Assembly: GCA_015233395.1 (NCBI GenBank)
Contig: JADFXV010000007.1
Location: forward strand, 1-64,000
DNA: 64,000 nt
From: Desulfovibrionaceae bacterium
Lineage (GTDB): Bacteria; Desulfobacterota; Desulfovibrionia; Desulfovibrionales; Desulfovibrionaceae
Direction of reading: 5' to 3'
Below are positions 22,815 through 52,651 of this stretch, one piece after another. A program made the translations under genes and the position numbers. How positions within the stretch are numbered: the stretch's first letter is position 1; each line of letters starts with the position of its first letter. The notes below the pieces were generated by a model. That model made no database searches and was not told the DNA's origin. It worked only from the letters and a program-made list of their open reading frames with translations.

Positions 22815-22908
22815 TGGCGGAGAGGGAGGGATTCGAACCCTCGATCAGGTTTTAAGCCCGATACCCGCTTAGCAGGCGAGCGCCTTCGGCCGACTCGGCC
22901 ACCTCTCC
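22815..22908 (-). tRNA. tRNA-Ser(GCT)
   Basis: On the minus strand the molecule starts GGAGAGGTGGCCGAG, has the anticodon loop CTGCTAA (anticodon GCT, reading AGC/AGU), a long class II variable arm, the T arm GAGGGTTCGAATCCCTC, and the acceptor 3' strand CCTCTCC followed by G and an encoded CCA (22815-22817). All seven acceptor pairs form. A terminator follows directly. It is a single gene, not part of a tRNA cluster. Confidence 0.97.
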
Positions 22909-52076: not shown

Positions 52077-52221
52077 CTACTCATGATCGTCCGGCGTCAA
52101 TGTGTTTGGATGTCTTTTCAGAACGCCGTAGCCCGTGAATCGAGTATCCGCTCATAAAGATATCGGCGCTCTAGTAGAATCGCCCATTTTCCCCCTGCCC
52201 CCGCCCCCCTTCACAAAACGT

Positions 52222-52270
52222 TTGCGGCCCTTTTCCCCCAGCGCTGCGCGCTGGGGGAAAAGGGCCGCAA
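52222..52270. repeat. 49-nt perfect inverted repeat
   Basis: Two 23-base arms with no mismatch flank TGC. The left arm starts TTGCGGCCCTTTTCCCCC and ends AGCGC. This is the longest perfect palindrome in the window and is unique here. It lies in the gap between the MFS gene and the selenoprotein gene, next to a family B copy. An RNA hairpin of this length is very stable. Confidence 0.85.
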
Positions 52271-52293
52271 TGACAAAGTTTTTTGAAAGGGGT

Positions 52294-52329
52294 CCGGGGA
52301 AAATTTTTTTTCAAAAAAGTTTTCCCCGG
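52294..52329. repeat. Family B-type palindrome downstream of the selenoprotein gene
   Basis: CCGGGGAAAA and TTTTCCCCGG arms enclose a T/A-rich loop, preceded by ACAAAGTTTTTTGAAAGGGG, as in other family B copies. For the minus-strand selenoprotein gene it lies 43 nt beyond the stop, after another hairpin. Confidence 0.6.
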
Positions 52330-52344
52330 CCTTCTCTTCTCCCT

Positions 52345-52362
52345 CCGGGACGACCGTCCCGG
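52345..52362 (-). terminator. Hairpin after the selenoprotein gene
   Basis: CCGGGAC and GTCCCGG (7-base arms, GGTC loop) lie 9 nt beyond the stop codon of the minus-strand gene. There is no T run, so it may act with the family B palindrome further on. Confidence 0.45.
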
Positions 52363-52371
52363 TTACACGCC

Positions 52372-52572
52372 TCAGGCGCCGCCGTAGCCGACGGTTGTTT
52401 CGCCGTCCGCGACGATGACCGGCACTTTGCGTTGTCCGCCCGACAGGGCGAGCATCGCGGTCAGAAGCGACGGCTCGGCTTTCACGTTTTTGTAGTCATG
52501 GTCCGGATACGCCTTCCTGGCGTTTTCGGTGTAGGGTCAGCCGTCCTTGCCATAGATGATTGTCCTGGCCAT
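52372..52572 (-). CDS. UXX-star selenoprotein, glutaredoxin-like, Sec at residue 12
   Basis: Read with selenocysteine at the in-frame TGA (52539-52537), the frame is 66 residues: MARTIIYGKDG-U-PYTENARKAY, then DYKNVKAEP, LLTAMLALSGGQRKVPVIVADGE and a GYGG end. UPYT stands where glutaredoxins have CPYC, and the Lys-Val-Pro-Val-Ile strand and Gly-Tyr-Gly-Gly tail match the known UXX-star (seleno)protein family. Sequence continues coherently after the TGA to a TGA stop at 52374-52372. AAGGAGG lies 6 nt before the ATG. A stem-loop just after the TGA fits a bacterial SECIS. A redox role on thiols is inference. Sec-machinery genes are not in this window. Confidence 0.85.
52509..52523 (-). promoter_or_regulatory. 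Candidate SECIS stem-loop
   Basis: On the minus strand ACGCC and GGCGT pair around AGGAA, beginning 13 nt after the in-frame TGA. A lower CCG/CGG pair can extend it across a 3x3 internal loop. A small stem with a G-containing apical loop within 16-37 nt of the UGA is the bacterial SECIS form that SelB binds. Confidence 0.5.
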
Positions 52573-52622
52573 GGCGTCCTCCTTGCGGCTTGCCGGCCGA
52601 TTTTGCCGGTGCGTTTCGCCTT

Positions 52623-52651
52623 GCGATATTTATTTTATCTATGAAAGTCAA
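52623..52651 (-). promoter_or_regulatory. Possible promoter of the selenoprotein gene
   Basis: On the minus strand TTGACT (52651-52646) and TATCGC (52628-52623) are 17 nt apart in an AT-rich patch containing AGATAAAATAAA. It lies about 50 nt upstream of the start. The -10 is weak. The patch might also hold a regulator site, but none is recognisable. Confidence 0.35.

Follow-up and report, generated by a model that had tools for sequence, protein, structure and literature searches.

The closest described relatives of the protein considered here make up UXX-star selenoprotein family 1, for which there is a curated NCBI model (NF041114) and which appears in two reviews as 'Distant Grx-like protein 1'; the earlier of these lists the family under that name (PMC9312934), and the second, of 2026, gives NF041114 with the motif UxxT and two selenocysteine (Sec) residues (PMC13188914). 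A literature search found no papers on the family besides these two reviews. The family, with its two Sec residues, is therefore already known from the curated model and a review, and what is new in the present account is the conservation of each of the two sites, a SECIS element in the 3' untranslated region (UTR) and a prediction of how the C-terminal tail is docked.

Two other groups of proteins need to be kept distinct from this family. Glutaredoxin 3 and the NrdH-redoxins (TIGR02181 and TIGR02194) share the fold of our protein over residues 1–65 (Z about 9), but the sequence match is weak, with scores far under the cut-offs of the two models (24.2 bits against 90 for the dithiol glutaredoxins of TIGR02181); moreover, our protein has UPYT instead of CxxC, with no second Cys at the CxxC position, lacks the last helix, and carries a C-terminal Sec tail. 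The second group, the HUGP/GUXX-star fusion proteins (NF045501), shares a glutaredoxin-like domain, which in L136 closes with Sec-X-X-stop, but the domain is fused to a C_GCAxxG_C_C domain and has CPYC, and our protein scores only 45.1 bits where the cut-off is 325. In L136 and L137 (relatives G087 and G194) a UXX-star-like domain is fused to a HUGP / C_GCAxxG_C_C domain, and that of L136 has CPYC while still ending in Sec-A-V-stop. The family of the fusion partner (PF09719) was not found in the genome that carries our gene.

A new member of UXX-star family 1

The DNA analysed (the window) is a stretch of 64,000 nucleotides from a Desulfovibrionaceae bacterium, and contains on its minus strand a genuine, tiny selenoprotein gene of this known family (Table 1). 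From an ATG at 52572 the frame passes through TGA at codon 12, where it encodes UPYT (residues 12–15), and TGA at codon 67, to end at TAA, with the C-terminal layout GGA-U-G-V (U67-G68-V69-TAA). A preliminary description of this DNA had the strand, the frame, the ATG and the ribosome site (AAGGAGG, five bases upstream) as we find them, and was exact about the in-frame TGA at codon 12 (52539-52537), but in proposing a 66-codon frame with one Sec it placed the end of the gene wrongly, at a TGA (52374-52372) that is the conserved second Sec codon. Because the frame goes on with G-V past this UGA to TAA, the protein is 69 residues long instead of 66 and contains a second Sec. Overall, the best explanation, which we rate at a probability of roughly 0.85, would be that this is a stand-alone gene for a minimal, glutaredoxin-like protein with two Sec residues, decoded and provided with a redox-active tail in the ways proposed below.

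Table 1. Features of the UXX-star family 1 locus and the single tRNA gene of the window
Feature	Position	Strand	Basis or remark
UXX-star family 1 gene	52363..52572	-	69 aa, Sec12 and Sec67; TAA stop at 52365-52363
UGA12, Sec codon of the UPYT site	52537..52539	-	Homologue codon counts
UGA67, C-terminal Sec codon	52372..52374	-	TGA in 124/124 homologues; codon-position pattern
Ribosome site AAGGAGG	52578..52584	-	5 nt before ATG; read directly
SECIS-like hairpin for UGA12	52503..52529	-	Fold energy; fixed-register pairing; pair changes
SECIS-like hairpin for UGA67	52345..52362	-	Fold energy; equivalents in homologues
tRNA-Ser (gct)	22815-22908	-	Only tRNA in the window

In profile searches, with C substituted for U, the 69-residue protein scored 102.9 bits with NF041114 (E 7.8e-30), far over the cut-off of 72, so that the assignment to the UXX-star family made in the preliminary description holds good. 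The match spans profile positions 2–70 of 70, and removal of the last three residues lowers the score to 94.4 bits; with the parent model, NF041212 (cut-off 66), the same removal takes it from 72.1 to 65.2 bits. Scores with UXX-star families 2 and 3 (NF041211 and NF047338) were 38.2 and 36.5 bits, below the cut-offs of 100 and 97. The gene is thus a new addition to family 1, a kind already described with two Sec, and it shares with the described family the full-length match, UxxT and both Sec residues; we see no difference of substance, although its identity to any collected homologue reaches at most 67%. Profile search found a single family 1 gene in its genome, together with a second, weak UXX-star match (26 bits) that has no UGA.

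We collected 124 distinct homologues from 395 genomes of the phylum, from 288 genomes of the family and by scanning named genomes (L055, which has TAG ahead of the C-terminal column, was excluded from the counts). Codon 12 is TGA in 75 of them and Cys in 49 (TGC in 37, TGT in 12), so Sec and Cys occupy the same column, which the preliminary description had named as a sign that would support its reading. It had also taken UPYT as the site behind the name 'UXX-star', but 122 of the 124 homologues end in Sec-X-X-stop instead, and it is most plausibly this layout to which the name refers. Two of the homologues (L024 and L122, in genome G367 at C16:100071-100696) are tandem family 1 genes separated by about 225 nt, and both of them have two TGA codons.

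Predicted fold and tail docking, and possible function

The AlphaFold model of the protein (pLDDT 94.6) finds its best structural matches, over residues 1–65, among glutaredoxins, NrdH-redoxins and small thioredoxin-like proteins, and the modelled fold is confidently of the glutaredoxin type, ending before the last helix. Comparison of sequences likewise gave matches to glutaredoxins. An alignment of 67 rows has nine invariant positions: I6, G8, U/C12, P13, T15, A18, P51, G62 and U67. To judge from the sequences, the place of the second Cys in CxxC does not normally hold a chalcogen, although a more distant homologue outside this alignment (L124) has Cys at position 15.

In the model, DSSP assigns two strands of two residues each, 49-50 and 67-68. 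If residues 1–66 are predicted alone, the strand at 49-50 is lost and confidence in the last block falls from 95 to 77. It is this loss on omission of residues 67–69 that leads us to predict, as the likeliest arrangement, that K49-V50, immediately ahead of cis-Pro51, is the pairing partner of the Sec67 tail. In glutaredoxins, glutathione or the substrate sits by the cis-proline. The predicted docking would set Sec67 beside Sec12, which suggests that the two may form a redox pair. In the mechanism that we propose, the UPYT site would be monothiol-like, since position 15 offers no resolving residue. The tail, rich in glycine, would turn back on the protein and Sec67-Gly68 would pair with Lys49-Val50, at the site that glutathione takes up in ordinary glutaredoxins. 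From there Sec67 could join Sec12 in a diselenide or, in relatives that have Cys12, form a selenylsulfide. The tail might then serve as a built-in resolving arm, much like the Sec tail at the C terminus of thioredoxin reductase. In the mammalian form of that enzyme the tail is mobile and contains glycine, and the Sec close to its end reaches a second redox centre; the likeness to the tail described here would be one of working principle, and not of homology.

Going by the model and the conservation, we take the protein, with about even confidence, to be an oxidoreductase in which Sec67 would be the selenol that cannot be spared, while its partner, residue 12, could be exchanged. More tentative is the fuller picture, which we hold with slightly less than even confidence, in which Sec67 would dock in the protein's own glutathione groove and form an intramolecular diselenide with Sec12, its SECIS lying wholly in the 3' UTR and nearly half of the relatives having a UGA for Sec followed 9 nt later by a UGA for stop. 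A serious rival, though in our view a less likely one, is that the two selenols bind a metal, a metalloid or another electrophile instead of acting as a redox pair. A role as metal ligand has been suggested for Sec in UXX-star proteins (PMC13188914), two invariant chalcogens predicted to lie close together would also suit a binding site, and no redox partner is encoded nearby. Set against this, no recurring metal or metalloid resistance gene was seen among the neighbours examined, of which a minority were annotated individually, and the fold is that of oxidoreductases, which by itself proves no function. In addition, relatives fuse a related domain, with CPYC and a C-terminal Sec, to the C_GCAxxG_C_C domain, and because this partner is putatively redox-active the fusion speaks for redox work, though the genome of our gene lacks a match to the partner family.

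Reading of the two UGA codons

It is almost certain, from the sequence evidence assembled here, that both UGA codons are read as Sec by SelB, each with a hairpin of its own, and that TAA ends the chain. SelB would deliver Sec-tRNA at UGA12 under the guidance of a hairpin within the coding sequence, and at UGA67 under that of a hairpin right after the stop codon, and termination at TAA would follow residue 69.

By comparison of the sequences, Sec67 is the more conserved of the two Sec residues, and is kept by all of the collected homologues: TGA occupies the C-terminal codon in 124/124, a count to be read in the knowledge that most were gathered with the model of their own family, so that relatives lacking the C-terminal UGA could be under-sampled. 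A stop follows exactly at the third codon after this TGA, with two codons between, in 122 of the 124 (TGA in 58, TAA in 33 and TAG in 31). The identity of this true stop has changed at least 55 times on the (poorly resolved) protein tree, whereas the C-terminal TGA has not changed at all. In 24 homologues with equal spacing, codons 68–69 differ from those of our gene at frequencies of 0.10, 0.06 and 0.60 at positions 1, 2 and 3, a pattern also found for codons 2–11 and 13–66, while in the 33 nt before the ATG and the 45 nt after the stop the difference is about 0.7 at every position (about 0.73 after the stop). It follows that UGA67 does not interrupt the coding sequence, whose last codon is 69. 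A protein with only one Sec, in which UGA12 would be read as Sec, UGA67 would be a true stop and the 3' hairpin a terminator or a product of chance, is accordingly very improbable: UGA is a common stop, and the frame up to UGA67 still matches the family model well above its cut-off, but such a reading sits badly with a codon 67 that stays fixed while the next stop varies freely, with the conservation of codons 68–69 as protein, with the hairpins' general lack of T-rich tails (see below) and with the two Sec given for the family by PMC13188914.

In the 58 homologues in which the true stop is also TGA (for example L045, L053 and L066), it lies 9 nt past the Sec TGA, so that two UGA codons so close together have different meanings. 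The spacing of the hairpin in these shows no obvious difference from that in homologues ending in TAA or TAG.

Published rules for bacterial SECIS elements (bSECIS) specify a loop of 3–9 nt, with G in its first two bases, at 16–37 nt from the UGA, and both hairpins of our gene conform to them (18 nt and AGGAA for UGA12; 16 nt and GGUC for UGA67). The hairpin for UGA67 (CCGGGAC-GGUC-GUCCCGG) starts directly after TAA and has a fold energy of -13.9 kcal/mol. Its z is -2.29 in a local fold of 36 nt but only -0.90 in one of 55 nt. In 122 of the 124 homologues a hairpin of -6 kcal/mol or lower follows the C-terminal UGA, mostly at 16–21 nt; 118 have G within the first two loop bases, and a T-rich tail is found in only four, which makes these hairpins unlike terminators. 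They are equally strong in homologues with Sec12 and with Cys12, as would be expected if they serve codon 67. According to a review, a bSECIS is typically part of the coding region, whereas the candidate element for UGA67 lies wholly in the 3' UTR.

The stem-loop of 5 bp that the preliminary description saw starting 13 nt after TGA12 is indeed there (ACGCC-AGGAA-GGCGU, at 52509-52523, with a short lower stem in addition), and its distance of 18 nt and its loop fit a SECIS role at that codon. Folded in 45 nt it gives -11.2 kcal/mol (z -2.24), and compared with synonymous recoding its apical part has p 0.046. Hairpins in the homologues cluster at 18 nt when residue 12 is Sec (32/55) and are scattered when it is Cys, strict independent pairs being too few to decide the association. 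Codons 18 and 20 each contribute their third base to the apical pair, and in fixed register it is formed in all Sec12 homologues (as CG, TA, GT, GC or TG), against 72% of shuffles and 57% of Cys12 homologues; the tree shows 11 changes of pair type, in which the bases on both sides vary.

The means of Sec incorporation, which the preliminary description had made a point on which its reading would depend, are all present in the genome: selA (612 bits), selB (E 1.1e-101), selC (tRNA-Sec with anticodon tca, 85.7 bits) and selD (321.6 bits). The selD gene (L134, at C66:24610-25530) itself has one in-frame TGA, in KAAGUAAK. In selenophosphate synthetases this position is occupied by Sec or Cys, and the genome probably specifies a Sec-containing enzyme of this kind. 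Co-occurrence of selB with the family (38/40 versus 37/40) was not informative, selB being too common in the phylum to discriminate.

Genomic context

The gene stands alone, between a divergent gene for DNA polymerase III alpha and a gene for an MFS transporter, and a scan for sigma-70 promoters found none. No shared operon was evident among the neighbourhoods of the homologues, where the neighbours are only clade-specific and indicate no pathway. Phage records gave no match to the gene, and the sole plasmid match is an annotated glutaredoxin 3. The intergenic stretch at 52200-52345, outside the SECIS-like hairpin, contains a perfect 23-nt inverted repeat and a terminator-like palindrome, and about 45 similar stretches elsewhere in the genome (46 matches) mark it as one of a REP-like or terminator-like family of repeats. 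On the opposite strand an open reading frame of 169 codons (52135-52644) overlaps the gene, but that it should be the real gene, or the minus-strand frame a chance one, can be given hardly any credence in view of the E-value of the family match, the minus-strand start and ribosome site, the sel genes and, decisively for its rejection, the fact that the variable base is the third codon position of the minus strand and the first of the antisense frame.

Significance

To end the gene at UGA67 is to drop a residue that every collected homologue retains, and gene callers and careful readers alike can miss Sec67 in this way. With two Sec in 69 residues and a SECIS element past the stop codon, the family may be a useful test bench for the decoding of UGA, the more so as UGA serves as the stop 9 nt after the Sec UGA in 58 of the 124 homologues; and the predicted docking of the tail would provide a concrete test of the function of UXX-star family 1.
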